IMG/VR virus record: IMGVR_UViG_3300031658_000139
Location: 1 to 23,104 of that record
DNA length: 23,104 bases
Reading direction: 5' to 3' (one strand)
Origin: a virus
The position numbers were made by a program, and so were the translations under genes. The notes beneath the pieces were generated by a model that saw nothing but the letters and a program-made list of their open reading frames with translations, was not told the DNA's origin and did no database searches. Positions 1,967 through 21,125 of the stretch are shown here, piece by piece (the stretch's first letter is position 1; the number at the start of each line of letters is the position of its first letter).

Positions 1967-4192
1967 GTGGCAAAGAGAACTACAGTAGGTACATCTGTAA
2001 GTAGAGTCCTTGATGATGACTCTATTCCTAATTCAATTGAGACCGGGGGGTTAATTTCCTTAATGACAGGAGATCCTCTACTTCCTACTGTAGAAGAGCA
2101 GGTTTTTGGGAGTATATCCTTTAAACTTAGTAGAATGTACAACTACGGGAGAGATAAATACGTCCATGGTTTGCCTAGTGGGTTAGCTTCTTCTGGGAGA
2201 ATTAATGAATCCACAGTCATTACCACACTTGCGGAGATGCATAACTCCTCTACTAATATAATACGGGTTATATATAGTTACTTTCAACCTAGTAATTATT
2301 TCCATTTTGCATGGATGGAACTTATTAGGGTATATGAATATAACCCAGTAACTAATGAATTGCCTGTATTGTCTGCTTCTGTGGGGTTTCCTGTATTTTT
2401 AGACGATATGGTTTTGCAAGTTCCTCTAGGGGATGGTTTTGAATATAGTGCTGAGGAACTCGCTTTATGGGATACACCTGCTAATGTGGGTAATACACCT
2501 AGTAGATCTTTTACATTATCATTATCTGGATTACGTCTACCTTCTCCAATTGTTGAGTTAGATACTATTACAGCGGTACAAGCATTAGTCACATATTCAT
2601 GGGCTACAGGGATATTAGCAAATAAGGAATTTAGCACTTCCAACGTTATAATAACTCCTAATGCTTTTGAGGAAGGCGCGTCATACTTACATATTAAATA
2701 CAGTTTGGGTACTGAAATAAAATATATGGCGTATGACCCAAGAACGGGCGTTTACCCTGCATTAGATGTTATGGTTAACCCTCCTGTTACAGCAAATGGT
2801 AAATTTTTTCCTTTTTCCTATTTTCGTTATGATAATATTCCAGAAACAACTGATAAGACATCAGAATCCTATATTGGTAATAAGAAGTTACTTAAGTATT
2901 TAAACCTAGATTATGATGACATGGCAGACTCCATCAATTCTCTTGAGGGTGCTGAATTTGTTGAACAAGCCATGCTCGTATTAGCTGTACCGGCTAATTC
3001 AACAAACCCACTAGATCAGCGGTACTTATTTGACTTCTTCAGTACATTTCCTGACGTTGAGTTATTTAAGAAAAGCAAAAATCATGCTTATTTTAATCAC
3101 ACTCATGTTATAGAAGATAAAAGATTTAAATTATCTTTAAACCTTATAAGCATAAAGAAACGTATATTTGCAGGTAGTATTGGTGAGGTAGGTACTTATA
3201 CGTTTGCGATAACTAGTGAACCTTCTGAGCTCTTCTTTGGAAGTCGGAGAAACGAGGTAAAGCGGTCTAAGCAAGCTTTTAATAATATACACAATTACCG
3301 TCATCAAATATCTCCTAATTTTTATGAAGAAATTAAGATCATTGGGTTAGAGATCCGATACCATGTCTTTGGTAAGTATCTTACAACAAGTTTTAATAAT
3401 GACGATATCCGTTTAATTCCTGTGGATTACTCAATATCCCAGAATTACGGGCTGATAGTTAGGGAAGAGTTCTATTCTAGATCTATGCATATTATCCTTA
3501 ATAGCAAACAGACTATAAAACTTAAGTGGTGGCAAACAGGCCCAGTTAAATTCCTTATTACAGTGGTGGTAATCGTCTTAGTGACTGCAGCTACCATAGC
3601 TTCCTTTGGTACTTTAGGCCCTATACTGGGACCTATATTTGCTACAGTATTAGCAGCAGCAGGAGTAGCCGTAGCATGGGCAGTAATCATTGTTATCACG
3701 GCGGCTATAGGAATGGTTATTAGTTATGTACTACGTAAAGTAGTAGCACTTATAGGGATTGAAGGAAGTTTTATTGCTGCAGTGATCCTTATAGCTACTG
3801 CGTATTTCTACCCTGAAGGGCTAATATTTGAAGGTGTCGCTTTCGGGCAGATACTTATAGATGTAACAGTAACGTACTTACTGGAGATAGGTCTTGGGTT
3901 AATAGTTGCTATTCAAGATTACACTGAAGATTTTTTACGTAAAGAAAACAAAGAATTTGAATTATTAAAAGAAGAAAAGTATAAAGAACTTGATCGTGCT
4001 AACGCATTACTAGAAGATAACTCAAATATACTCACCCCTTTCATAGTATTTGGCGAGACACCAGATGAGTATTACACCCGTACAATCCATTCTGGTAATA
4101 TAGGTACACTTACTATTGATTTCGTGCATGACTTTACGGCTCTAGCTTTACTATTGCCTGAACATAGACCTACACTAGGAGGATTGACATAA
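1967..4192 (+). CDS. Large phage virion protein with membrane-like segments
   Basis: The protein has 741 residues and starts at GTG behind AAAGGA. Residues 1-520 look soluble and beta-rich, opening with SRVLDDDSIPNS and KLSRMYNYGRDKYVHG. Residues about 527-655 hold several strongly hydrophobic stretches, including KFLITVVVIVLVTAA and SFIAAVILIATAYF. A charged helix rich in Lys and Glu follows (about 656-690). The mass (about 83 kDa) and the place a few genes before the vRNAP match N4 gp52, a large virion protein; this match is from position and from my memory of the family, not from alignment. The hydrophobic part suggests a protein that inserts into a membrane during genome ejection, but this is inference. 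Its TAA stop overlaps the ATG of the next gene (TAATG), so the two are translationally coupled. Confidence 0.75.
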   Translation: MAKRTTVGTSVSRVLDDDSIPNSIETGGLISLMTGDPLLPTVEEQVFGSISFKLSRMYNYGRDKYVHGLPSGLASSGRINESTVITTLAEMHNSSTNIIRVIYSYFQPSNYFHFAWMELIRVYEYNPVTNELPVLSASVGFPVFLDDMVLQVPLGDGFEYSAEELALWDTPANVGNTPSRSFTLSLSGLRLPSPIVELDTITAVQALVTYSWATGILANKEFSTSNVIITPNAFEEGASYLHIKYSLGTEIKYMAYDPRTGVYPALDVMVNPPVTANGKFFPFSYFRYDNIPETTDKTSESYIGNKKLLKYLNLDYDDMADSINSLEGAEFVEQAMLVLAVPANSTNPLDQRYLFDFFSTFPDVELFKKSKNHAYFNHTHVIEDKRFKLSLNLISIKKRIFAGSIGEVGTYTFAITSEPSELFFGSRRNEVKRSKQAFNNIHNYRHQISPNFYEEIKIIGLEIRYHVFGKYLTTSFNNDDIRLIPVDYSISQNYGLIVREEFYSRSMHIILNSKQTIKLKWWQTGPVKFLITVVVIVLVTAATIASFGTLGPILGPIFATVLAAAGVAVAWAVIIVITAAIGMVISYVLRKVVALIGIEGSFIAAVILIATAYFYPEGLIFEGVAFGQILIDVTVTYLLEIGLGLIVAIQDYTEDFLRKENKEFELLKEEKYKELDRANALLEDNSNILTPFIVFGETPDEYYTRTIHSGNIGTLTIDFVHDFTALALLLPEHRPTLGGLT

Positions 4193-4749
4193 TGGTTTTT
4201 GATAATAGAAATAATGGGACTCAGGGTCTGATACCTGATTTTGGTAATTATAATTCTTTAATTGATACAAGGAACCCATTGGATTTATCTCCAGATCTGT
4301 TCGGAGGCAAACAAAATGTAGGTGGGTCTATTAATTCATTTAGTAAACATATGGATAATCTCGGACAAGGCGCATCAGGAAAGATATTTAGCGGCGGAAG
4401 TAGATTAGGGCAAATTAGTGGAGCTCAACCTGGTGGAGCTCGACCGGGATTTCTTAGTCGAGTTAACCAGGGGTACAAAGATATCGTAGGTACTCCTAAA
4501 AAGCCTGGTTTTGGTAGAGATGCATTTGGGGTCGCAGCTGGTGGTGCTCAAGCATTCCTAGCAATGAAGCAATATGGGCTTATTAAGAAGGGTCTGAAAT
4601 TTCAAAAAGAAAGTTTCAATAAACAATTTGCAGCAAACAGACAAACCACTAATGCAGCTATTCGAGGTAGGGCAGCTGAAATGTTTGCTGCTACAAATGG
4701 CGGAAGTAGAACTGTAGAGCAAGCACTTAAAGAGGATGGGATAGCATAA
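4192..4749 (+). CDS. Small internal/ejected virion protein
   Basis: The protein has 185 residues. AGGAGG lies about 9 bases before the ATG, which overlaps the stop of the 741-aa gene. The N-terminal half is Gly/Ser/Asn-rich and probably disordered. A short hydrophobic patch (GVAAGGAQAFLAMKQYG) is followed by an amphipathic helix ending in FNKQFAANRQTTNAA. The order hydrophobic patch, then long Gln/Asn-rich helix with NRQTTN, then a C-terminal EQALKEDG-like tail is one I associate with small proteins in podovirus ejection modules. A role in the injected complex with the vRNAP is therefore inferred. By position it could correspond to N4 gp51. There is no enzyme motif. Confidence 0.7.
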   Translation: MVFDNRNNGTQGLIPDFGNYNSLIDTRNPLDLSPDLFGGKQNVGGSINSFSKHMDNLGQGASGKIFSGGSRLGQISGAQPGGARPGFLSRVNQGYKDIVGTPKKPGFGRDAFGVAAGGAQAFLAMKQYGLIKKGLKFQKESFNKQFAANRQTTNAAIRGRAAEMFAATNGGSRTVEQALKEDGIA

Positions 4750-6341: not shown

Positions 6342-9300
6342 ATGGCTAATCCATTTGATATCGACCAAATCCTTGCTTCAAGACAGGCAGAAGCAGAGGC
6401 TACACTCCCAGGTAAATTAGAGAATGTCTCTGCTATTACACAAGGTAAATTACAGAGATTAAGTGAATTCGCTGTAGGAGCTGATCAACGTAACGCCCAG
6501 AGAGCCGCTGAAAGGGAGGCTACTAAGGCTTCCTTAGTTGGGCAACTTGGTTTAACTCCTGGGTCCTTCACAGGTAATGTAGTGAATGTGGGTGCTTCAT
6601 TAGCTTCTGGAGCGTCTAGATTTATTGGGGGTATAGCTGCATTACCAGATAGTGCTGCTAGTAACCTCTTCTTACAAAATGTTACTAACCAGGAAGGGGA
6701 AGCTATACGTAGACAGCAGGGCGGTACAGCAACTCCTGCGGATCTTGCATTAATTAATCACCGTCCTGATGAAAGTTCATTAACAGTATTAGAAAAATTC
6801 CAGGCATCTAAAAGTTCCCGTGATAGTTCAATAGCAACTAATGAGGCATTTAATCTAACAGGACTAGTTGAGCAAACCAACCGTGAGGATTTTGTAGCAG
6901 ATATTGGTCGTAATTTTGACCCAGATTTTGGGGCAGTTAAAGAAGGGTTAGCTAGTATATCTGAAGGGGATGTACTCTCTGGTGCAGCGAGTTTAGCTAA
7001 GGGTGTAGGTAACTTAATCGCTACTGCTGGTAGTGCCATCCTTACTAACCCTGCTGCCATAGCTGAACAGGTTGTTGAGAATATCCCCCAGATAGCTGTA
7101 GGTGCTTTTGGTCCTGTAGGCATAGGCGTTATGACTGCCGGTAATATTGGCTTCGCTATGGATATCTTCCAACAGGGTATTGTAGAGCGTACTAAAGCAA
7201 ATGATGGTGTAGAGCCTACACTGGAAGAGAGATCCGAAATGGGCAAGTTTGCTGTTGCTCATGTATTATCCGAGACAGTAGGTGACTTCATTACCTTAGG
7301 TGCGGCGGGGGCTCTTACTGACGCGGTTAAGAATGGAATACGTAAGAACTTCCTTAATTCAGTTAAGAATATTGGTAAAGCAGGTGCTGAAGGTTTCGTT
7401 GGTGAAGCACCTACAGAAGGGGCACAGACATTCTTTGAGGGTAAGATACTAGGTGAAGATGCTTCTGCTAAAGATATATATGTAGGTAGTGTGATTGGTG
7501 GTGCTAGTGGTGCTGGCTTAGCAGGGGGTGGTAGAGCACTCACAGAAGCAGCAATAGCTGCTACTACATCAGCATCTGAACCAAAAGCCGATGCTCCTGA
7601 CGCGCCTGTAACTGCCTCACAAACCGAAGCAATAGATTCAGGTAATGTTGATGCCCTTACTGACCCTCTTACTGAATCCTATGCTCCTCGTGCAGCCATA
7701 CAAGCATTACACGGTAATAGCAGTAAGGAAGGCGCTACACAGGAAACTAAGGATGCCAACATAGTTAAAGCCAATCAGATAGTAACTGGCTTAGATGACC
7801 GTATAGACTACCTGCAGAGGATAATCAAGAGTCCTGATGCTGCACAGAAAGATATAGATGCTCTGAACTTGGAACAAGAGACTGAGGATGATCCTGCTAC
7901 TAAGGTGCTAAGACAAACAATAATTGACTCTTCCATTGCTCAGAGACAAGCCATTATTGATAATCCACCTAGTAAGGCTAATACAGATAATACTACAGCT
8001 GAGATTGCTAAATTAGAAGGTCTACGTGGTCCTGCTGTTGCTGCTAGAGATATCTTGGAACAGACTACAGGTATCACACCTACTGATGTAGATACGTTAG
8101 TACAAGAGGTAGACACACCTACGCCTAAGGTATCTCCTAATAGAGCAAAAGCCTTAGCTGCTGCTAGGTCTATTGTGGAGGCAGATGATGTTGGGGATAA
8201 AGTACATCTTACTGCTAGAAGAGCGAATAGTATATTAAGGGCATTAGACCAAGCAACAAAGGATACGGATAAACCTGCACAAGCTATAGATAGAATACGT
8301 GAATACTTAAAAGATATTCCAGAGTCCTCTACAACAGAAACTACACCTGAGCAGACTGCACAGAATGCAGATAGGGTTGTTACGTTGGCTATGGCAAGCC
8401 CTGACAAGATATCAGATGCACAGCTTAAGCAGTTAGCCAATAATGAAAGTAATACGCTTACAACGCCTCAGAGAGCGTTACTACGTGAATTGTCAGCAGC
8501 CCGTATTGCACTAAACGCATTGCAGGGAGTGAAAGGTGTAAATACCGATATTATTAATGGGCATGCAACTGACGCTAATAATAGAGGCATCAAACAATAT
8601 AATGCAGCTGCAGCCAAAGCATTAACTACAGGTAATAAAGCTGCACTTGAGGCAGAGATACTCTTACTGTCTAAATTCGTTAAATCACATACTAGTAAAG
8701 ATGCTGCGGTAAAGGCTGCGTTTCAAACAGTAAACAATAATAAAAATAGGATATCTGAAGTACAGGTTCATGCAAAGGATGGGGGATTCTTCGTTGCAGA
8801 GGTTCCCTTTACAGACATAGTTAAGGAAGGGGAAGAAACAATAACTGTTAAGGCCCAAATAGCTAAGAATGGTGGGCTAGTAATTGAAGCCAAGTCACGG
8901 AATATTGTGCCAGCTATTGGTAAAGAAGCAGTAGCGTTAACAAGAGCATTATCAGCAATGAAGGCAGCAAGGGATTTCCGATTTAATACACCAATTAACG
9001 AGGAAGCAGATGCTAGGAATGCGAGCGCAGCAGAGTCACAGAATGACGTACCGCCTACTCCAGCAGAAGAAACAGCAGCAGCACGAGAGGACGCAACAGG
9101 ACAAGATACTGGCAAAGTTAGTAAAGCCGCCTTTAAAGAAGTAACAGCAACAGGTAAGGCTAAAGTTAAAGGGGAAGCCCTTAAAGAAGTAAGGGAGGAG
9201 GACGCTCCTCTTACTTCTGCTGACTTAGGTTTCGATGGTAGCCCAATTGTAGAAGACCCTACACTCCCTAGAGACCTACTTGCAGAGGAAGCTCAAAATA

Positions 9301-12300
9301 GAAGACAAGACATTATAGAAGCAAGCGACGCTATACGAGAAGATGACCCCAGGTTAGGGGAGGCTTCAGTAAGGCGTTTAGCTGAAGGGGTAGCCGACGA
9401 GAAGGCTAAAGCACGAGCACAGAAATTAAAAGATACGAATAAAGTTAGCAAAGAAGACTTTAAAGAAGTAGAAGATTCACAACTAGATTTTAGTAAAAAT
9501 AGCCCTATTACCGAGTTAATAGAGGAGATAGGTAAGCATTTAGCTGTAATGATTGACATTAATAGTGATGACGCGAATGTGCGTATTCTGGAAAATGGGG
9601 AAGCAGGCATTCCGAAATATGATGCAATATTTGCTGTAGCTAGAGAGGCCTTTGATGGGTTGAACGATGCTTTGTTTAATCTATTGGGGCAAGTAGAGGA
9701 AGCACGCCCTAAAGACGTACCTCTCTTAGAGGCTAGGCGTAAAGCTATTAGAGTTGCCGATGATGAATTCTTAAACCAAAGCGCGGGCCAAATAATAACA
9801 TTAGCGAGAGAAGTGCTTACTTTAGTTAATGCTATCAAAAAAGGAAAAGCCAATAAAACCAATGAGAGAATAGCTCCTGAATCTGGTATTACTAAAATCA
9901 AAAAAGATTTTAAACTAACACTACGAGATAGCAAGGGGCGTGCTCATTTAGCTAAAGATCAACTGAAAGCAAATAAGGCTACTGTCTTCATTGGTGCGGG
10001 GGTAGAAGGCTCTGCTACTGCCCAATATGCTAAGGATGCTAAAGCAGCAAAGATACCTGTTAACCCAGATACTATTACGGCAGATGATGTTGTGTTTATT
10101 TCTGCTAATGGTGTTCGTAAGGGTAGAGTTGCCCCTAATACTGATCGTATAGATATAGCTATTGCTGCTGGAGCTACTATCATTACAGATACTGAAACAC
10201 ATAGAAATAAGGTAGTCGGAGGTAGAGCATTTAATATAGGGGAACAGGAAGTAGCTGATCACCTTAATAATCAAGGTTACAAGGAAGATAACGGAACAGG
10301 TGTGTGGACTCCAGTTGTGGAGCCTACAACAGATGCAAATACCGTTGTAGAGGATGAAGTATCAACTGAGACTCCACAGGAGGTGCAAGGGTTCGCTGTT
10401 TTACAGGCGGAAAGGACCGCTAAAGGTGTTGCTCCTAAGGCTTACGATAAACGTAACCTTATAGCTGATTTCTTTAAGCAAGTACTTAATAGAGAAGGGG
10501 ATACTACTTTACGTCCATTGGTAGCTGTTAAGGACTTCTTAGCTCCTAAATTAAAGTTCAGTGGGATACTAGAATTCTTACCTCAAGGTAAGCTTAAAGA
10601 GGAGCAGAAGGGATTTATTCAGCTATTTAAGAATCTACACCTTAGTCCGAATACCAAGGACCTTATCACAAAAGAGAATATGTCTTGGGAAGCAATCATT
10701 ACAAGGAATCTCTTCAAGAAAGACAAGAACAAGAATGACTCAGACTTCTATCACAGAGACTTACTACAATTCTTAATTACAAGAGCAGAGGATGGCAACC
10801 CTGATATAGAGCAAAATGCTAAGACAGCAATAGCATATGCTGCATTTAACTGGCTTACATCTGCAGCTGCAGGTCCACGAGTTAATGGGGCTAGAGAGGT
10901 TAACGCTCTACTTGGTAGACGTAGTGACACTCCTGTCAGTAGGAAAGAGATGGCAATACTTGGTTCTGTTGGTTCTCTTCAAAGTACTATAGTCAATTCA
11001 ATGGGGATGCCCGCAGTACAGGCATTAGGATTCAAGGCGAATAAAGATACTCCTGTAAATTTACCAGGACAATTGGAATCAGCATTTGGTGGACAAGTAT
11101 TTAAATTACTACATGATATCGGTGTAGTAGAGACTACTAGAGTTGAGAGCCAAGTAATGTCTGCACTTCGAGCTGAAACAGACAAGTTTGGTAATCTCAT
11201 TCCTATTGACCCAAGAGATGAATCTTTTCAAACTTTTGTTAGATTAGTACAAGTTCCTCAGAAAATAGGAGCTAATAAACTTTCTCCTAAAGCTGAGGAA
11301 ATTCTTGCTGCGGGTAAAGGTACTCAAGGTATTTTAGATAAGCTATTCTCAGTGGATTCTGGATTGAAGGCCCCAACTAGTGAGCCTGTTTCATTTGCCC
11401 AAGAAGATATAAGAGGACAAAAAGTTCCTGAGGTTGCTAAGGCTATATTAGAAGCAGAGAATGCTACTCCTAGTTTCTTAGATCCTGCGGTATTGCAACT
11501 TATTAGTATTATTGATAGAGCTAACCTTAGTAAGATATTAGGCAGAAAGAGTACTGCTAAACAACATGGCGCTCTTATCCCTGGTATAGACGCCAATAAT
11601 GACGCTATAGAGCGTTCTATTGATAATCTAACTAACTACGTTAGTGAGATGTTTACTGACGGTGTGCCTGACGTGTTACAGGCTATCTTCTTCAGTCATA
11701 AGATGCAGGTCACTCAACGTGTAGGTATTGAAACTACACAGATTAACCCTCAGTCAGATAAGTTCCACCGATTTGCTTTAGTACGAGAAAAGTGGAAGAC
11801 AGAGATCACTAAGGATAATCTTGATGCTTTCTTGTTAGTTGCAGGTGAGGGGCTTGGGGTCAAAATTGATAAACAGGATAATTCTAAATCTGTTGAAGAA
11901 ATAAGAGACATCATCTTTTCTAAGGATATAAAAGCTGGTGTGACCGCGCTTGTTTTCATGCTAAATAATCCTGACGTTACTACTATGAGTGATGCTCATC
12001 AAGCGGCTGTGCTTAAAGCAGTAGAAGGGGGCAAAGAGAAGACCCATTCATTATCCGCACTAATGGCATTAGCTAAGTTCCAGATAGCTAGGAAAGAGGC
12101 TCAGGATGCTGGTGATGATACTCAATGGAAGTTCTCTACTCAACTGATGGGAGAAGTGGATGGAGGGAATAATGGAGTAATGTTGTCTCACCTTGCTCTC
12201 GGTGCAGCTTCTCCTAGTAAATCGAAGACAGCAGTACAGAATTTATTCACCTTATTAAATAAAGGTGGCTTCTTTGAAAATAGTGATGCACAGGAGGATA

Positions 12301-15300
12301 GCCAATTTAATCTATGGCGTTCCCGTGCAGGTAATCTTGATCTGTATGAATCCACTGCGGCTAATATCATCAAGAGTATTAATAGCCTGACCCTTACTGG
12401 TATATTTTCTAAGGATGGGGGAACTCAATTAGTTTCTCCTAAAAATTTAAAATTAGCAGTAGATAGCATCTATTACTTTACTGGTGAGTTAAAGGGTGAG
12501 GATATAAATGGAAACCCTGTTGTAAATAAAACAGGACGGGATATTACCAAGACTCCAGTACTTGCACTAGCATTTGGTTCCTCTACTAGGAAAGCTGTAG
12601 AGGGTATGGCTGAAGACTACATTACAGCTATCTATAAGAAGATTGCGGATATTGGTTTGGAGGGTTTGAAGGATGACAATAAGGGGTCACAGAAGGATGT
12701 CTTAATCACTAACCTCAATACCATGTTAAAACGTGGGGGGGCTTCTCATGGAATAAATTTTAAGAAGATTACCTCTGCACAATTAATGGGATCTAAAGTA
12801 GGTACAGGAAAGCGTCAAATTGCTCTTACTGAGGAGCAAATAGTAGCCCTGAAGAAAGGCTTTATTGATACCTTTGGTGTAGCTGTAGAGAGCACATTAG
12901 AGGCTGACTTTGCTCCTCTTATTGAACAACGGAAGCAAGTTAACACGGGTACTCAAGTGACGCATGCTGTATTTTCATCAATAGAGACTGCCTTAATCCA
13001 AGAGTTCAAAGAGGCTGCTATGGATGCTTCTGTAGATCCCGATCCTACAAATACGCACGCAAAGCTTCCCTTCAGAATAGAGAAAGGGGTACGGGTTCCA
13101 TTACATGATCTAACTTCAGAACAATTTACTACCATACGTGAGAAATTGAAGGCCTTTAGCCCTCATGTGGCTACCCATATGACTAATTTAGGGGGCAAGG
13201 ATGCTCCAATAGACCAAGGCATATTAATATCTAAACAGGAAAGTAAACTCAGCAAAAATTCTACGTATGAAGATAAGTCCTCTTATAGTGTCCCCTTCAG
13301 GGGAACAGGTAAGAGGAGCATAACTGTTAAAGGGAATGAAACAACTACTGCTGATCCTGGTGTACGTATGGTTCCTCTACTTACACATTCAATGGAAGTT
13401 GCTACATTACTCGCTTCTTTAAATGCAGAAATTCAACAGTTGAATGTATTCGATGCTGTAGGCGCTGGTGTAGGCCAATTGAAGGAAGCAGCACAACGTA
13501 TTAATGCGTCATTATTTAATGTAATGTTAAATTACTCTCCTGCTGAGGAAGTCTATACCACATTCACTCGTACCCTCCGTGGGTACGAAACCATGCCTGA
13601 GGTAGGTAATTTACCTGATGCTGCTCTTGAGAATCTTGTCGATTCATTAGAAGACATGGCAGATAAGGGCAAAAATGATCCTACAGTTCCTGCGTTTGAT
13701 ACAGGAATGCTGTTTAAACTGGTTCAGAATATGAAGAGCACAGCTTTTAAAGCTGACACAGTAAAACTTGATACCTTAGCCCAATCTAAATCCTTTGACC
13801 AATACGCGTTTGAAGGGGGTAATTATAAGGTTACATCTGCTGATCGTAAGGCTGCTGTTGATAAGAAGGCCGAGCTAACTGACTCAATTGACGCGGAGAC
13901 AGTTAAAGCATTGAAGTTAATTCAAGCTGAATTGGCTCCTATCATTACTAAGAGAATTGCTGAGAAGGCTGCTGCTAAGAGAGCTAAAACCACGGCCTCT
14001 AAGAAGAAGGCTGCACCTAAAGCTAAGAAGCAGACTCCTCCAGTAGTGAAAACTGATTTTGGCTTAATAGGAAAATCTAGTACTTCTTCAGATTCTGAGT
14101 TAGTAACCTTCTTTGAGAAGAACCCAGATACTACAGCTAAACGAGTTATTGAAGGGCTAGAGCGTAAATACGGCAAGGGGTCTACATTACCTAATGCGGC
14201 ATTTAATCTTCAATTACTAAAGGTATTAAAACGCGCTATTGCCCCCGATTTTAAAATTAAATATATAACTAAAACTACACAGACGAGTGAGATCCTAGGG
14301 GAGCGAGTACTTAATGCTAGAGCCTGGTTTGCTAGTAGTTTAACTGATGAAGGTATATATATCCTTGGTTCAGATTTTGTTGATTCTGCAGTGCGCCCAG
14401 AAGTTATATTGCATGAGTTAGTTCATGCCGCTGTACATACTCAAATTACTAAATCTAAGCCAGGTAAGAGAACAGAAGCGCACATTGCCTCTCTTAAAGG
14501 GATATTGACTGCAGCACAAAAGCATATAAAAACAACTCCAGAACTAGAAGAGAAATTCTCTAAACTTATTGGTACTGACGATGCGGCTAGGAACTTAGAA
14601 GAGTTAGTTGCCTGGGGGATGACTAACCGTACTTTCCAAGTTGAGGTGTTAGGTAAATTAGATGTAGGGGTTAAAGTTAAATCAGGGCTAGAGAAATTTA
14701 TTGATTTAATCACTAATCTCCTTTTCCAGATTACACCAAAAGCATCATCTAATAGTATGGCTACATTAATAAATGATGTAACCAGTATTATCGAGTTAGG
14801 GGGTGTAGCAAGGAAGGCGGCTAAGAAACGACAAGAACAAAAGAATACGGTAGCAGAGGGCGAAGTAGTTACGCGTTCTATGGCAGCACAAACGGCGCCA
14901 ATGGAAGCCATCGATAACTACACTGCACTAGAAATATTCGATGCTATGGATAACCGTGCCTTAGATCGTGTAACGCAGAATAGACTACGTAGCGTACTGA
15001 CTGACATAGTAGAGACGTTACATGGTCCATTTGGTGCGTTTAAAGAGAGTATGCGTAAGGATGAAGCAACGAATCCTTTAGCTGTTTGGCTTAAAGCATT
15101 AGATGAAGGTAAGGCTCCTTTCGTTAGTAGTATTTTAGCTTCTGGTTTCACAGGTAGTAATCAACAAGATTTCGTTATGGAACAGGTTGAAGTTACCATG
15201 CGTGCTGCCTTATCAGATAAAGCAATAACTACTACTACGGTACATCGTGAGCTAACTAAATTATTTGATGAGACCCGTAAGCGTCTTAAGCCAGTGGATT

Positions 15301-18300
15301 TCTTAGGAGGAGCGTTTCCTACTAATACCTTAGAAGAGGCTACAGCTTTATATGATTTCGTATTTACGATAGCTCCCGGTACAGATAAGCGTTCAGATCA
15401 CCTATCCCGATTTGCTGCATTAGGTTTAGGGCATAAAGGGGTTAATCGTTTACTACAGGTGAAGACTAAGATTTCAGATAAAGCAGAAGCTAAGACTTTT
15501 ATTGAAAAGTTAGAAGGATTATTTACTGAGGTACTAGAATTTTTCCAACGTAGAATTACTGGAACCTATGCAGGTCAAGCTGCTGATTTCAAGTTAGAGT
15601 CTCTTGTAGGGCAATTGGTTAGTATTGAGGCTAAACGCCGACATACCCTTAAACGCAAACAATCACAGAATAGAGCGTATTTAGTACCTGTAGAGGAGGC
15701 AATTAAGGAAGGGGTTGATGCTGCACTGAAGAAGACCGTAGAAGCTCTTAAACACCCTCTAATAAGCGAGAAAGCTCATGTATTCATACGAGCACCAGCA
15801 GCAGTATTAAGTCTTGCTGCAGGGAGGCATTTAGATACCTTCTTAGACACTATGGGTGTCATGCGGGATAAGACGTATGAGGGACAATTGGGTATTGCTG
15901 CAGGATTACTTAATAACATTAAGGGCCCTGTTGAAGCATTCAGTATGTTGCTCCGTATGCGCACATTGAGTGAACAAGAACAAGTAAGTCATAGTAATAC
16001 ACTAGCTAAACAGGCTATGGGTGCCTTCATTAATAAGGGTAGAGACCTAGACGCGGAAACCAAGAAAGCAATCACTAGAGTGTTTATGCGTACTGGTTTA
16101 CATTCTCTAACAGAGCGTATGTCTCTAACTGAGATAGAGAACTTACTAGATAACCCTACCGCAATAGAAGCAGAGATTGCTAAACTTGAGACTGAGCTAG
16201 ATGTGTTTGGTGCAGCTACTAGGGAACAGTTTACTGATGATGCGAATGCTTTAGGTTATTCAGTAGTCACTAGCATTGCTCGTGTGGCAAATCTGAAGAA
16301 TAATACACACCAGATAGTGAACCAGATTGGGCTTACAAAGAACCTTACTGTTGCAGAGAAGAAAGCAGCAGCTCTAGTTGTGGATCCTTTAATTGCTCTG
16401 TATGCATTACGTTATTCAACAGGAACAACTCTAGTTGATAACAAAGTAGTTACCATAGCCTCATTAGCTAAGAAAGTTATGCAAACAGAGAATGCTCGTG
16501 GAGAGACTGTTGGTAATGGTATAGCTTTCGTCCTCCTCACTTCTAAGCAGTTACAGAAGGAAGCTCAAGCTAAATTGTTTAAGGGGGATCCTGCGTTAAT
16601 GATGCATGGTTACACCCCTGAGATATATAACCCACATACATCATTATTATCGGCTAATGAAACAGCGGGTAAAGAATTAGAGTATTTAAATTACACTAAG
16701 GGAAGTTTATTACCAAAAGATCCTTCTGATCCTAATGGGGAAGATAAACATATTTATGTGTTATCAGATGGTGGTATGGCACCACAGATTACAGGAGTTG
16801 TAGGTTACGGAAGCCAACAAGCTAAAGGTACTCAAGTAGGTATTGAGCATTTGGGTATAAACGCTACAGGCGGAGCACATAATGCAAGTGCTGTAGCAGC
16901 GGTTAACGCTCATCGTGCTAAATTACGAAATACCACTACTAACCCAAGTCGTGACTTATCTAAGGAGACAGGTAACTACATGGCTCCTATATATAATACG
17001 GCGGGCGTAGCAGTAGGTTGGCGTCACCTAATGGCTGAGAGTACAAAGGATGTCTTACTAGAACGCAATAATGATTTCTCTAAATTATTAGGTGCAGCAG
17101 GAGGCAGTATTTTAGGTAAGCCAGCCACTGTTGTTGATAACAAGAGAGCGTTCATAGCTATGCGTGAACAGTTTGAGTCTGAATTTGCTACTAGAGGTGC
17201 TTCTTATATTACAGTTGGCCCTAAGAGTGATGACCCTGAGCTACGTGCTATCTACGCTAGGTTGCCTGGAGAGACCAAGAAAGACATAAAGGAAATCTGG
17301 GGTGGTGACAGTGTAATGGTAAGGAAGGATTCTTTAGATATCCTCTTTGGGTACCGTAAGGTGTCTGCTGCTGACCCATTTAGACGATCAGTTACTGAGC
17401 GTACGAGGCTTAAGCTTCTTGGTTTAGACCATGGTATAAAAGATGTAAAAAGTATTAATGCAGCTCAGAAATTACTTATCGGTATTGTAGAGGCAGTGGT
17501 TAAGTCTTACGCACGCACCACAAAAGGAATGACGGAAGAGCAAGCAGAGAACTATTCCAAACGTATCGCAGCATATGTAGCGAAAGCAGAGAACATATGG
17601 CAAGGGGTAGTCACTGAGATTAAAGACATAATTGTAGTAAAGTCAGGAATCGTACTTGCTGGTAACATATTTGCTAACTTTACAATGCTCCATTTACAGG
17701 GCGTCTCTTGGTCTGACATGGTTAAGCACACCTTGGTGGCATTTAAAGGTGCAGCGCAACACAGAGCTGATAGCGTAGAATTAGATCAGCTACAGACCCA
17801 ACTTGCTACAGGTTACACACTAGGTCAGGATGTTGAGATTAAGAGACGCATCAAAGTTCTTGAGTCTGCAATAATTAATAACCCAGTTAATGTGTTAATT
17901 TCTGAAGCTGGCTTGATGCCTACCATTGTTGAGGACGTTGATATGAGTGAAGATATCTACTCATTCAAAGGTGCTCTAGCTAGGAAAATAGATAAGGTAT
18001 CAGATAAGTTACCAGCAGGTGTTGTAAGTGCAGCCAGAACGCTCTATATGACCCGTGACGGGAAGATGTACAAAGGGTTGGCACACTTGACTCAAATGTC
18101 TGATTTCGTTGCTAGGTACGCTCTATACCAGCACCAAACCACACGTAAGAAAGATCCTCTTGAGCATGATGAAGCAGTTCAGCGTGCAAGTGATGCTTTT
18201 GTTAATTACGATATCCCACTACACCGTGGTATGCAGTACAGTGATGATATGGGGTTCACCTTGTTTACTAAGTACTTTATTAATATTCAAAGGGAATTAA

Positions 18301-18497
18301 TGAGAGTGTCTAAGGAAAATCCTGGAAGAGTGTTTACAATGATTTTATTAAATCAATTTATGAACCTAGGACCCATCGTATTAGATAGTTCTGTGTTCAG
18401 TGGTTCCGGCAGTCCTTTCCGCCCTGGTGCTTTAGATTACCCTTATGTGTTAGATGAACTAGCCACGATAAGTACTACGTTAGCAGTAATCAAATAA
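6342..18497 (+). CDS. Giant virion RNA polymerase (N4 vRNAP-like) with extra domains
   Basis: The protein has 4,051 residues, against about 3,500 for N4 gp50. It is the phage-encapsidated, T7-family RNA polymerase that is injected and transcribes early genes. Residues about 205-405 hold Gly/Ala-rich membrane-like segments. Residues about 1203-1325 form a Rossmann-like domain (FIGAGVEGSATAQYA). The polymerase spans about 1350-2480: INPQSDKFHR (1801-1810, compare T7 NPQ), motif A with D1940 (EVDGGNNG), motif B with R2066, K2070, F2078 and G2079, the T7-like helix LLTHSMEVATLL, and motif C with D2371 (NVFDAVGAG). The R-x3-K-x7-F-G spacing equals that of N4 R666/K670/Y678. A Lys/Ala-rich linker follows at about 2542-2566, then a metalloprotease with HELVH at 2691-2695. 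The last 500 residues (LTQMSDFVARYALYQH) resemble C-termini of other giant phage proteins; in N4 the C-terminal domain is needed for packaging. The start has only a weak Shine-Dalgarno. The TAA stop lies within the terminator stem. Confidence 0.92.
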   Translation: MANPFDIDQILASRQAEAEATLPGKLENVSAITQGKLQRLSEFAVGADQRNAQRAAEREATKASLVGQLGLTPGSFTGNVVNVGASLASGASRFIGGIAALPDSAASNLFLQNVTNQEGEAIRRQQGGTATPADLALINHRPDESSLTVLEKFQASKSSRDSSIATNEAFNLTGLVEQTNREDFVADIGRNFDPDFGAVKEGLASISEGDVLSGAASLAKGVGNLIATAGSAILTNPAAIAEQVVENIPQIAVGAFGPVGIGVMTAGNIGFAMDIFQQGIVERTKANDGVEPTLEERSEMGKFAVAHVLSETVGDFITLGAAGALTDAVKNGIRKNFLNSVKNIGKAGAEGFVGEAPTEGAQTFFEGKILGEDASAKDIYVGSVIGGASGAGLAGGGRALTEAAIAATTSASEPKADAPDAPVTASQTEAIDSGNVDALTDPLTESYAPRAAIQALHGNSSKEGATQETKDANIVKANQIVTGLDDRIDYLQRIIKSPDAAQKDIDALNLEQETEDDPATKVLRQTIIDSSIAQRQAIIDNPPSKANTDNTTAEIAKLEGLRGPAVAARDILEQTTGITPTDVDTLVQEVDTPTPKVSPNRAKALAAARSIVEADDVGDKVHLTARRANSILRALDQATKDTDKPAQAIDRIREYLKDIPESSTTETTPEQTAQNADRVVTLAMASPDKISDAQLKQLANNESNTLTTPQRALLRELSAARIALNALQGVKGVNTDIINGHATDANNRGIKQYNAAAAKALTTGNKAALEAEILLLSKFVKSHTSKDAAVKAAFQTVNNNKNRISEVQVHAKDGGFFVAEVPFTDIVKEGEETITVKAQIAKNGGLVIEAKSRNIVPAIGKEAVALTRALSAMKAARDFRFNTPINEEADARNASAAESQNDVPPTPAEETAAAREDATGQDTGKVSKAAFKEVTATGKAKVKGEALKEVREEDAPLTSADLGFDGSPIVEDPTLPRDLLAEEAQNRRQDIIEASDAIREDDPRLGEASVRRLAEGVADEKAKARAQKLKDTNKVSKEDFKEVEDSQLDFSKNSPITELIEEIGKHLAVMIDINSDDANVRILENGEAGIPKYDAIFAVAREAFDGLNDALFNLLGQVEEARPKDVPLLEARRKAIRVADDEFLNQSAGQIITLAREVLTLVNAIKKGKANKTNERIAPESGITKIKKDFKLTLRDSKGRAHLAKDQLKANKATVFIGAGVEGSATAQYAKDAKAAKIPVNPDTITADDVVFISANGVRKGRVAPNTDRIDIAIAAGATIITDTETHRNKVVGGRAFNIGEQEVADHLNNQGYKEDNGTGVWTPVVEPTTDANTVVEDEVSTETPQEVQGFAVLQAERTAKGVAPKAYDKRNLIADFFKQVLNREGDTTLRPLVAVKDFLAPKLKFSGILEFLPQGKLKEEQKGFIQLFKNLHLSPNTKDLITKENMSWEAIITRNLFKKDKNKNDSDFYHRDLLQFLITRAEDGNPDIEQNAKTAIAYAAFNWLTSAAAGPRVNGAREVNALLGRRSDTPVSRKEMAILGSVGSLQSTIVNSMGMPAVQALGFKANKDTPVNLPGQLESAFGGQVFKLLHDIGVVETTRVESQVMSALRAETDKFGNLIPIDPRDESFQTFVRLVQVPQKIGANKLSPKAEEILAAGKGTQGILDKLFSVDSGLKAPTSEPVSFAQEDIRGQKVPEVAKAILEAENATPSFLDPAVLQLISIIDRANLSKILGRKSTAKQHGALIPGIDANNDAIERSIDNLTNYVSEMFTDGVPDVLQAIFFSHKMQVTQRVGIETTQINPQSDKFHRFALVREKWKTEITKDNLDAFLLVAGEGLGVKIDKQDNSKSVEEIRDIIFSKDIKAGVTALVFMLNNPDVTTMSDAHQAAVLKAVEGGKEKTHSLSALMALAKFQIARKEAQDAGDDTQWKFSTQLMGEVDGGNNGVMLSHLALGAASPSKSKTAVQNLFTLLNKGGFFENSDAQEDSQFNLWRSRAGNLDLYESTAANIIKSINSLTLTGIFSKDGGTQLVSPKNLKLAVDSIYYFTGELKGEDINGNPVVNKTGRDITKTPVLALAFGSSTRKAVEGMAEDYITAIYKKIADIGLEGLKDDNKGSQKDVLITNLNTMLKRGGASHGINFKKITSAQLMGSKVGTGKRQIALTEEQIVALKKGFIDTFGVAVESTLEADFAPLIEQRKQVNTGTQVTHAVFSSIETALIQEFKEAAMDASVDPDPTNTHAKLPFRIEKGVRVPLHDLTSEQFTTIREKLKAFSPHVATHMTNLGGKDAPIDQGILISKQESKLSKNSTYEDKSSYSVPFRGTGKRSITVKGNETTTADPGVRMVPLLTHSMEVATLLASLNAEIQQLNVFDAVGAGVGQLKEAAQRINASLFNVMLNYSPAEEVYTTFTRTLRGYETMPEVGNLPDAALENLVDSLEDMADKGKNDPTVPAFDTGMLFKLVQNMKSTAFKADTVKLDTLAQSKSFDQYAFEGGNYKVTSADRKAAVDKKAELTDSIDAETVKALKLIQAELAPIITKRIAEKAAAKRAKTTASKKKAAPKAKKQTPPVVKTDFGLIGKSSTSSDSELVTFFEKNPDTTAKRVIEGLERKYGKGSTLPNAAFNLQLLKVLKRAIAPDFKIKYITKTTQTSEILGERVLNARAWFASSLTDEGIYILGSDFVDSAVRPEVILHELVHAAVHTQITKSKPGKRTEAHIASLKGILTAAQKHIKTTPELEEKFSKLIGTDDAARNLEELVAWGMTNRTFQVEVLGKLDVGVKVKSGLEKFIDLITNLLFQITPKASSNSMATLINDVTSIIELGGVARKAAKKRQEQKNTVAEGEVVTRSMAAQTAPMEAIDNYTALEIFDAMDNRALDRVTQNRLRSVLTDIVETLHGPFGAFKESMRKDEATNPLAVWLKALDEGKAPFVSSILASGFTGSNQQDFVMEQVEVTMRAALSDKAITTTTVHRELTKLFDETRKRLKPVDFLGGAFPTNTLEEATALYDFVFTIAPGTDKRSDHLSRFAALGLGHKGVNRLLQVKTKISDKAEAKTFIEKLEGLFTEVLEFFQRRITGTYAGQAADFKLESLVGQLVSIEAKRRHTLKRKQSQNRAYLVPVEEAIKEGVDAALKKTVEALKHPLISEKAHVFIRAPAAVLSLAAGRHLDTFLDTMGVMRDKTYEGQLGIAAGLLNNIKGPVEAFSMLLRMRTLSEQEQVSHSNTLAKQAMGAFINKGRDLDAETKKAITRVFMRTGLHSLTERMSLTEIENLLDNPTAIEAEIAKLETELDVFGAATREQFTDDANALGYSVVTSIARVANLKNNTHQIVNQIGLTKNLTVAEKKAAALVVDPLIALYALRYSTGTTLVDNKVVTIASLAKKVMQTENARGETVGNGIAFVLLTSKQLQKEAQAKLFKGDPALMMHGYTPEIYNPHTSLLSANETAGKELEYLNYTKGSLLPKDPSDPNGEDKHIYVLSDGGMAPQITGVVGYGSQQAKGTQVGIEHLGINATGGAHNASAVAAVNAHRAKLRNTTTNPSRDLSKETGNYMAPIYNTAGVAVGWRHLMAESTKDVLLERNNDFSKLLGAAGGSILGKPATVVDNKRAFIAMREQFESEFATRGASYITVGPKSDDPELRAIYARLPGETKKDIKEIWGGDSVMVRKDSLDILFGYRKVSAADPFRRSVTERTRLKLLGLDHGIKDVKSINAAQKLLIGIVEAVVKSYARTTKGMTEEQAENYSKRIAAYVAKAENIWQGVVTEIKDIIVVKSGIVLAGNIFANFTMLHLQGVSWSDMVKHTLVAFKGAAQHRADSVELDQLQTQLATGYTLGQDVEIKRRIKVLESAIINNPVNVLISEAGLMPTIVEDVDMSEDIYSFKGALARKIDKVSDKLPAGVVSAARTLYMTRDGKMYKGLAHLTQMSDFVARYALYQHQTTRKKDPLEHDEAVQRASDAFVNYDIPLHRGMQYSDDMGFTLFTKYFINIQRELMRVSKENPGRVFTMILLNQFMNLGPIVLDSSVFSGSGSPFRPGALDYPYVLDELATISTTLAVIK

Positions 18498-19185: not shown

Positions 19186-19512
19186 CTACTCCTTCTTAGT
19201 TTGTGCTGCCATCATTGACAGCAACTGTTGAAACGTGTTGCTTGCCATGCCTGCATAAATAGTAGCCACAGCATCAGCCATATGCTCTGCTTTACTAGTA
19301 ATAATCCTAGGAGAGCCCTTAACAGTCTGTATAGGCCAATTGGCTTCAGGGTGCTTATCTACAGCCCAACTAATCATCTGATCCTTAGTAGCTGTTTTAA
19401 TACCTACACTAACTAATTTGACTTCAGTAGGAGTTACTTCAAAGAAAGGTATGCCACTAGCACGTAATGCTCCTAGTACGCCCACACAGATGCCGTATGA
19501 GGCCATTGCTCG
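19186..19512 (-). CDS. RuvC-like Holliday junction resolvase, 3' exon
   Basis: This is the C-terminal 108 codons of a RuvC-fold nuclease. It begins RAMASYGICVGVL, the helix that in phage RuvC-like proteins directly follows the EVPxGSQSA motif of the upstream exon. Near the end it carries AEHMADAVATIYAG, where the Asp of the H-x-x-DA motif is the last metal ligand of the RuvC active site. Open reading can be traced back to a TTG at 19524, but the four residues before RAMASYG do not fit the family and belong to the intron. Joined to the 5' exon it gives a 198-residue protein, a normal length for phage RuvC-like resolvases. The protein would cut branched DNA during recombination or before packaging. 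Confidence 0.82.
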   Translation of the reverse strand, partial: RAMASYGICVGVLGALRASGIPFFEVTPTEVKLVSVGIKTATKDQMISWAVDKHPEANWPIQTVKGSPRIITSKAEHMADAVATIYAGMASNTFQQLLSMMAAQTKKE

Positions 19513-20536
19513 CAATATGTTCAATAAAGGTCGCTACACCTCTACCCGTTCTCTTATGAACTGCTGCGTGTTTCTACACAGATCAGACTATATCTTTATC
19601 CTTTCGGATAGTGACCGCTTCCACCATCAATAGCTTATGGTGTACTCCCCTATGGGATAGTCGTTACACATTCTTAACATTGGTGCGGTAAATTATATTT
19701 TTTAATAAAATTACGTCTGGCGGTAACAGCCTCTTCTTCTGAGTGTCCATAATAAAGAGAGTGTATTTTCCCTTTCCATTGAAGTTTAGAAATCCAAGCT
19801 TTGTTGGTGGTACAGAAAATTACACCTATATACTTTGAGGAACTATTAGGCTTCTTCCAAGTTTTATTAGCTGCTTGAGTTGAGTCATCTACCCACCTAA
19901 GGTTACCAACCTCGTACCCTTTATCTGTGTTTATCCTATCAATAGAGATTGTTTGAGAATTCTTTGTTATATTTGTGTACGGGTACTGTTTTAAAGTACT
20001 AACGTATTTTAAAAAGTCATCAAATAAATCGAAATATTCTGCTACCTTAATACCTCTACCCCCATAACGGGGGTACCTACCATTGTTAGGGTTGTTACAC
20101 CTATCTCTAAGTGATGCCCATACAGTGTATAAAGGGTGGGTGTCTGCACGATAAGCAGTATTTCTCCTGGTGAGAATACCCCCACATTGATTAGAGCAGG
20201 TTTTTTGTCGGATTCGTTTTGCATTAGCATATACAGCAGTAAATACTGACTCACACACAATGCAACGTAACCTGACCATTCTATCTCTTCTGTTTCCACG
20301 ATATGTAGGAGTATCTTCTTTGATGAAATTTCCATCAAACTCAATTGAAGTTATTTCTTCCCTTTTCTTGCACATTATAATTTACCATATGTAGTAATAC
20401 CAAACAGTTTACTCTAATCTGTTATGGTTTACCAATATTAAGCTTTGCTCGGTATCGTCCTCGACTCTACGTTAGGAGATTCACCGAATTCAATCACTTA
20501 TAATATTACCCATTACTGAGCAACACGCCCTGTTTG
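19513..20536 (-). ncRNA. Group I self-splicing intron in the resolvase gene
   Basis: The intron is about 1,024 nt. Near its 3' end are the two strands of helix P7: CGACTATCCC (about 19653-19662) and AAGATATAGTC (19586-19596), the latter the classic phage group I signature, with a P8-like hairpin (ATCCGAAAGGAT) just before it. Near the 5' end, 20441-20496 reads as P3-P4-P5 (TTCGGTGAAT ... GATACCGAGC). P9-type hairpins lie at about 19545-19582. The proposed 5' exon ends in T and the intron ends in G, as the class requires. Joining GCT to CGA restores VPVGSQSA-RAMASYG in phase 0. Without splicing, reading stops at the TAA at 20513-20515. I could not resolve a convincing P1 guide helix by eye, so the exact splice sites may be off by a few codons. 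Confidence 0.85.
19674..20375 (-). CDS. AP2/HNH homing endonuclease encoded in the intron
   Basis: The protein has 233 residues. The N-terminal part has a likely zinc-binding knot with CIVC and CSNQC (about residues 38-64). The HNH nuclease core is near residues 135-165, with SIDRINTDKGYEVGN then LRWV, the usual D-R-I-D-x-x-x-G-Y-x-x-x-N-x-R-W pattern. The C-terminus is an AP2-type DNA-binding domain (SKYIGVIFCTTNKAW ... HSEEEAVTARRNFIKKYN). This layout is typical of mobile phage endonucleases that cut the intronless allele and spread the intron by repair. The gene starts 66 bases after the P3-P5 part of the intron and ends just before P7, so it probably sits in a P6-region loop. Only a weak ribosome site precedes the ATG, as is common for intron-borne endonucleases. 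Confidence 0.9.
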   Translation of the reverse strand: MCKKREEITSIEFDGNFIKEDTPTYRGNRRDRMVRLRCIVCESVFTAVYANAKRIRQKTCSNQCGGILTRRNTAYRADTHPLYTVWASLRDRCNNPNNGRYPRYGGRGIKVAEYFDLFDDFLKYVSTLKQYPYTNITKNSQTISIDRINTDKGYEVGNLRWVDDSTQAANKTWKKPNSSSKYIGVIFCTTNKAWISKLQWKGKIHSLYYGHSEEEAVTARRNFIKKYNLPHQC

Positions 20537-20806
20537 AGCTGACTGACTACCTACTGGAACTTCAACGAAAATCGCATGAGCGCCTTGTGTGGCACTTATA
20601 GCATCACGATACAATTGGTGTGCTGCTTCCAGGTCTTTACTGTTAACGCGTAATTGTTTACCAGTAGAGATAATCGGCTGTATTACGGTTAAATCATCAA
20701 TAGTGAGGTTTTGTGTAGTCGTGTCTAAATAACCAACCGCTACTCCCCAATTTCTGAGTGATGGATCGAACCCCACTACTTTTAAGTTATTCTTGAGGAG
20801 ACTCAT
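20537..20806 (-). CDS. RuvC-like Holliday junction resolvase, 5' exon
   Basis: This is the N-terminal 90 codons of a RuvC-fold nuclease. Strand 1 carries KVVGFDPSLRNWGVAVG, whose Asp is the first metal ligand. The second acidic ligand is in FVEVPVGSQSA at the exon end. The reading continues seven codons into the intron (QTGRVAQ) and stops at 20513-20515. The start is taken as the ATG at 20806 because AGAAGG (20820-20815) is 8 bases upstream; the GTG at 20815 overlaps that site. The start lies 20 bases inside the upstream 112-aa gene, so translation is coupled. Spliced to the 3' exon (19512-19186) it encodes a 198-residue junction resolvase acting with the Sak4-like ATPase and SSB of the same operon. 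Confidence 0.85.
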
Positions 20807-21125
20807 TAATAACACCTTCTTCTTTGATAACTAATTCATCATCTAAGACTTCGGGGATCTCAGTGAAAGGCAGTGATCCTAGGTATGCTAAAGCTAGTTC
20901 TATTCCAGCTTTAAAACCAACTAGTTTATCCCCTTCAAGAATTACTTCAGTAGTGGTATCTGTAGCCTTATCGGTTACTTCTACTGAATTACCTGCGGGT
21001 ACAAGTAAGATGTGCTCTAGTTCAGCAACCTTCTTAGCATGCCAATCCGTAGTGAATTCTATAAATTGGCCAAGGTCTGTTACTTCTATAAATTCTGGGG
21101 GTTCTTGTATTGGCGGAGTTTCCAT
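20787..21125 (-). CDS. Small acidic phage protein, function unknown
   Basis: The protein has 112 residues with a strongly acidic sequence. It opens with a Pro/Glu-rich stretch (METPPIQEPPEFIEV), then an amphipathic helix (WHAKKVAELEHILLVP), a short beta hairpin region with GNSVEV and TTEVILEGDKL, and a hydrophobic helix (FKAGIELALAYLGSLPF). I recall phage proteins with the same helix-hairpin-helix order and an LxxLxxLPF end, none with a proven role. AAGGAA stands 6 bases before the ATG. It overlaps the start of the resolvase gene by 20 bases, so both are translated from one message and may act together. Confidence 0.65.
   Translation of the reverse strand: METPPIQEPPEFIEVTDLGQFIEFTTDWHAKKVAELEHILLVPAGNSVEVTDKATDTTTEVILEGDKLVGFKAGIELALAYLGSLPFTEIPEVLDDELVIKEEGVINESPQE

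Follow-up and report, generated by a model that had tools for sequence, protein, structure and literature searches.

In an N4-like phage, the gene for a RuvC-like resolvase is, as judged from its sequence, very probably interrupted by a mobile group I intron, inserted in frame in phase 0. The DNA analysed here (the window), 23,104 bases long, is a virus record from a metagenome. It is assigned to an N4-like phage, as an earlier note on the same DNA had proposed, on the basis of a 4,051-aa protein at 6342-18497 (+) that scores 1,645 bits against phrog_2206, the family of virion RNA polymerases, together with a minus-strand gene order (Sak4-like, SSB, RuvC-like) that is the same as in N4 relatives. 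This polymerase is longer than the 3,406-position PHROG profile, which aligns nearly full length. A small ORF at 20787-21125 (-), overlapping the start of the resolvase gene, gives 'Mu Gam-like end protection' matches (phrog_15896, 3.3e-11; phrog_6755, 3.2e-7), i.e. a match to a DNA-end-binding protein adjoins a resolvase.

The two halves of the interrupted gene match complementary regions of a single family (phrog_159, positions 89-168 and 167-262), and excision of the insert restores a 198-aa resolvase reading …EVPVGSQSA|RAMASYGIC…. The joined protein matches 309 named phage records, N4 gp46 at 48.6% included, each at one place and each with a match covering at least 80% of the 198-aa query. 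A further 114 distinct resolvase homologues on viral contigs are contiguous across the junction, 55 of them with exactly PVGSQSARAMASYGIC, the commonest form; because these homologues read in frame through it, both the junction, GCT(20537)^C(20536)...TTG(19513)^CGA(19512) in phase 0, and the length of the insert are fixed. The earlier note had described RuvC-like halves on the same strand, split directly after EVPVGSQSA by an insert of about 1,024 bases, and this description is borne out by the phrog_159 matches to both halves and by end-to-end alignment with intronless genes, which gives an insert of exactly 1,024 nt and indicates that the two frames are not normally separate genes. The insertion point lies eight codons past Glu82, which with Asp14 and Asp170 we place at the RuvC active site by motif and take to be the putative catalytic residues. 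Against the Pfam RuvC model the joined protein scores 17.2 bits (cut-off 22.2), and it is by sequence family that the host gene is identified as encoding a RuvC-like Holliday-junction resolvase, homologous to N4 gp46.

Two further virus records carry an intron at the identical RuvC codon boundary. In IMGVR_UViG_3300016478_000202 (L334/L441) it is 1,025 nt long, with nuclease and resolvase 62% and 64% identical to those of the window, respectively; in IMGVR_UViG_3300034045_000008 (L287), where the gene order is again N4-like (Sak4, SSB and RuvC, with a long convergent ORF next, at the place of the virion polymerase), it is 1,019 nt long, with corresponding identities of 46% and 40%. Both introns have the same core as that of the window and a 5-bp P1, in which the guides (GGCAG or GGCUG) match a silent difference in an exon Ser codon (TCT or TCA). 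The introns of L287 (2348-2350) and L334 also start with UAA right at the splice site, and ribosomes on unspliced RNA would therefore halt at the end of the exon. An intein can be excluded, because exon 1 runs into in-frame stops in all three carriers. Given that the window comes from a metagenomic assembly, we also considered whether two phages had been joined artefactually, the probability of which we put close to nil: a second contig (L086) carries exon 1 together with the initial ~540 nt of the insert, and by eye it shows no difference from the window there, so that a misassembly unique to the window is unlikely, and the inserts of L334 and L287 are homologous and lie at the identical codon boundary.

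Table 1. Features of the interrupted resolvase gene and its intron (window coordinates; helix strands as RNA).
Feature	Position	Strand	Details and basis
5' exon, RuvC-like resolvase	20806..20537	-	90 codons, MSLLKNN...EVPVGSQSA; D14, E82 (putative catalytic); phrog_159 3.6e-14
Group IA-type intron	20536..19513	-	1,024 nt; U^C...G^C boundaries; junction, core helices, covariation
P1	20541..20524	-	exon CAGCU 20541..20537 + guide GGCgUG within GGGCGUG 20530..20524
P3	20497..20491 / 19617..19611	-	GUGAUUG / CGGUCAC; 7/7 paired
P4	20488..20483 / 20453..20448	-	UUCGGU / ACCGAG; 6/6 paired
P5	inside P4 (20488..20448)	-	UCC/GGA; core comparison
P6 and P6a, 5' strands	20448..20432	-	P6 GCA; P6a CUUAAUAUUGG (20442..20432); sequence pairing
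HNH homing endonuclease (putative), predicted C-terminal AP2-fold domain	20375..19674	-	233 aa; phrog_374 1.6e-36; AP2 model match
P7	19662..19657 / 19591..19586	-	GACUAU / AUAGUC; 6/6 paired; conserved in relatives
P7.1 and P7.2	19656..19622	-	CCC/GGG and CACCAU/AUGGUG; hairpins between P7 and P3
P8	19617..19597 (including P3 strand)	-	UAUCC/GGAUA, directly after P3 3' strand; pairing
P9	19581..19564	-	hairpin
P9.1	19561..19548	-	hairpin
P9.2	19543..19526	-	hairpin
3' exon, RuvC-like resolvase	19512..19186	-	RAMASYGIC...stop, 108 codons; D170 (putative catalytic); phrog_159 2.4e-23

All of the group I core helices P3-P8 are present in the insert (Table 1), the 5' core (P3, P4, P5 and P6; 20497..20446) having been located by comparing relatives. 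A U.G pair stands at the 5' splice site in each of the three carriers, and the last intron base is G. The P6a strand CUUAAUAUUGG pairs at all 11 positions with CCAAUGUUAAG at 19683..19673; this helix is 11 bp in the window, 16 bp in L287, 7 bp in L334 and 11 bp in phage PhAPEC7 (L002), and its sequences differ. From the position of P7.1 and P7.2 between P7 and P3, the intron is assigned to subgroup IA, close to the phage IA2 introns.

A scan of viral contigs with a P7 pattern returned at least 120 stretches, and the core blocks of 26 distinct phage introns were aligned and scored for covariation in P3, P4 and P6, P7 being the search pattern itself. P3 was paired in 174 of 182 cells, as compared with 106 +/- 6 for shuffled partners and 55-84 when the partner strand was slid by 1-3 bases, with three or four pair types at most positions. 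The corresponding values were 156 of 156 for P4 (shuffled mean 141) and 52 of 52 for the two pairs scored in P6 (shuffled mean 37), and in none of 5,000 shuffles was the observed pairing reached for any of the three helices. P4 and P6 also co-change among these introns, the A-U pair of the window in P6 being a rare variant.

These data bear upon the possibility of a gene in pieces, i.e. that a nuclease cassette split the resolvase into halves which are translated separately and then assemble, leaving the core as a non-splicing remnant. Possible starts for the second ORF are TTG 19524 and the in-frame ATG within RAMASYG, and a precedent is provided by nrdA of phage Aeh1, split by mobE (reference 36 in the list of PMC5418858). 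However, the core helices of the window are all intact and co-vary in relatives, exact excision with a U^...G^ boundary restores the frame, and the whole arrangement is kept in three divergent phages, so that we regard such an arrangement as very unlikely.

A spliced group I intron thus remains the preferred reading, and the claims of the earlier note regarding it fared well: the group I identity is supported by the core helices, the covariation and the U^...G^ boundaries, both P7 strands are confirmed at the positions in Table 1, and the P3-P5 and P8/P9 helices that it had listed are present. Its expectation of a match to the Rfam group I model was realised in part, in that the RF00028 match is real but its score, 30.2 bits (E 1.8e-5, in a 1.3-kb stretch), lies below the gathering cut-off of 50; accordingly, a search of the window at the gathering score returned no match. 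The match is in the 3' half, and the 5' half of the alignment falls on nuclease coding sequence, not on the 5' core. ORF-less related introns score 56-103 bits against the same model, and the lower score of the window probably arises because the 702-nt nuclease ORF interrupts it. RF00028 matches twice on each of two other viral contigs (L207, L236), so that each has more than one group I intron within a short distance.

The protein encoded by the insert, which the earlier note had taken to be an AP2/HNH endonuclease, matches the HNH families phrog_374 (1.6e-36) and phrog_3377 (2.2e-24) and contains an HNH motif (IDRI...GY...NLRW); searches of Pfam and NCBIfam with it gave no match. These family profiles and the motif indicate a nuclease of HNH type with putative catalytic activity. 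A structure model built from 11 related sequences has a low-to-middling overall pLDDT of 70 with a well-predicted three-strand-plus-helix unit at the C-terminus. Model residues 177-233 best match plant AP2/ERF domains (Foldseek probability 1.00, E 0.036; superposition Z 7.3, rmsd 2.3 A over 56 residues), in agreement with the earlier note and pointing to a predicted C-terminal AP2 fold; a structure search with the model returned no HNH chain, the AP2 part alone being matched.

The nuclease ORF sits in the P6a loop, such that its last codons, CAA TGT TAA, make up most of the 11-bp 3' strand of P6a; in L287 the ORF continues further, its stop lying in the joining segment that precedes P7. Hairpins occur just 5' of the nuclease start in L441 (2110-2190, z -3.5) and L287 (2455-2519, z -3.3) and resemble the translation-control hairpin of T4 I-TevI (PMC2988022), and at the equivalent place in the window no clear hairpin signal was obtained (z -0.69). 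Promoter sites predicted ahead of the nuclease are no commoner than in shuffled sequences.

The P1 of the window is weaker than those of L334 and L287, its contiguous pairing being short (3 bp, a bulged G and 2 more bp, versus 5 bp), as might be expected of a decaying allele in which the ribozyme or nuclease is failing, neither splicing nor homing takes place and the resolvase is lost. We give this explanation very little weight, since the nuclease ORF is intact over its 233 codons and keeps all 14 invariant columns of an alignment of related nucleases (A2), both exons are intact, and P3 (7/7), P4 (6/6), P6a (11/11) and P7 (6/6) are fully paired.

The intron was found at the resolvase site in none of the 309 named phage records. 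In a tree of 110 resolvases, evaluated with 200 bootstrap trees, the three carriers occupy at least two separate places and three changes are needed, no bootstrap tree (0/200) uniting the carriers; this patchy distribution fits spread driven by homing, or repeated loss. As nuclease identities (62 and 46%) track those of the host gene (64 and 40%), such transfers would not be recent. No clear co-conversion tract was detected beside the intron, the 98th percentile being reached only in L334, in the bin spanning codons +10 to +20. Metagenomes 3300031143 and 3300016478, as identified by contig name, each contain both intron-bearing and intronless resolvase contigs, and donor and target may therefore co-occur.

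Two sets of candidate carriers were rejected. In Agrobacterium phage OLIVR1 (L326) the resolvase shows a 132-nt offset, but nothing comparable is inserted there and the reading frame seems to be broken: at 695-1326 the annotation has a short resolvase CDS and, after it, a small hypothetical CDS in which a match to the C-terminus of the resolvase persists, and the break looks like a frameshift, whether natural or from sequencing. A search of bacterial genome contigs with a RuvC-site/P4 pattern gave 80 matches, which we attribute to chance because none falls in a RuvC gene.

By analogy with established group I biology, we infer splicing, cleavage by the nuclease and repair-driven copying (homing) for the mobile intron. 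In P1 the internal guide would pair with CAGCU at the end of the exon, P3-P8 would build the ribozyme core, and two transesterifications, initiated by exogenous guanosine bound at P7, would join ...UCAGCU to CGAGCA, so that the spliced RNA encodes the restored 198-aa resolvase. The HNH/AP2 protein expressed from the P6a-loop ORF would introduce a cut or nick near GSQSA|RAMASYG in any intronless resolvase gene of a co-infecting relative, and that gene would then acquire the intron when it is repaired with the intron-bearing copy as template.

With this case, the range of phage genes carrying group I introns would extend to a recombination gene, that of a RuvC-like resolvase, which harbours a small family of same-site introns in three divergent N4-like phages. 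The replication/recombination block of these phages is a recurrent target, because related introns of other N4-like phages occupy the DNA polymerase gene and the Sak4-like gene next to the resolvase. Such resolvases will probably be overlooked by annotation pipelines, since the gene resembles two fragments and Rfam is silent at its default cut-off. Because the product of the intron's host gene may resolve the Holliday junctions of the intron's own homing, the efficiency of splicing could set the supply of resolvase and hence the outcome of homing and recombination in co-infection; we consider this unlikely, but if true, a mobile intron and the recombination enzyme on which its homing depends would be coupled by feedback. 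In T4 homing the resolvase gp49 is used, and its requirement is ambiguous (PMC2988022).

Comparison with known systems shows introns in N4-like phages to be less unusual than the earlier note had implied, as such elements have already been described in td, DNA polymerase, gp24, gp43 and gp44. A second side claim of that note, a possible delay of resolvase production through splicing, likewise gains no support. The N4-like phage pVa5 has a td intron (RF00028, 1e-18; PMC5746245), and the Vibrio N4-like phages JA-1, VchO139-I and phi 1 have HNH-split homologues of DNA polymerase, gp24 and gp43 (PMC3670811). Like the window, all four are N4-like with HNH-bearing introns or intron-like splits, whereas the host genes differ. 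In N4-like PhAPEC7 a putative intron is annotated in gp44 (Sak4-like), a gene for ssDNA annealing two genes upstream of the resolvase position. By DNA this is the nearest named intron, with 74.6% identity over two segments that lie towards opposite ends of the query, and comparison of the insert with named phages gave partial matches alone, none covering 80%. The PhAPEC7 intron has a similarly built P6a and a nuclease related to that of the window (35% over 156 aa). Within it (4036-4725), the annotated ORF comprises just 88 aa (4116-4379) and similarity to the window's nuclease spans 4140-4586, so that the PhAPEC7 nuclease may be broken or mis-called.

An incomplete literature search found no report of an intron in a phage resolvase or RuvC gene; since N4-like introns are recorded in other genes, the resolvase gene looks, as far as could be searched, like a new host for an element of known type. 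The window intron differs from phage IA2 introns in having a RuvC-like resolvase as host gene and in its HNH/AP2 nuclease; that of the T4 td intron is of the GIY-YIG type. Its helices follow the order seen in the IA2 introns Twort orf142-I2 and T4 td, with which it also shares the U^...G^ boundaries and the placement of P7.1/P7.2 between P7 and P3. In both the window and T4 td the nuclease ORF occupies a peripheral loop and reaches at its 3' end into the core structure, the overlap of ORF and core being established for td (PMC2988022).
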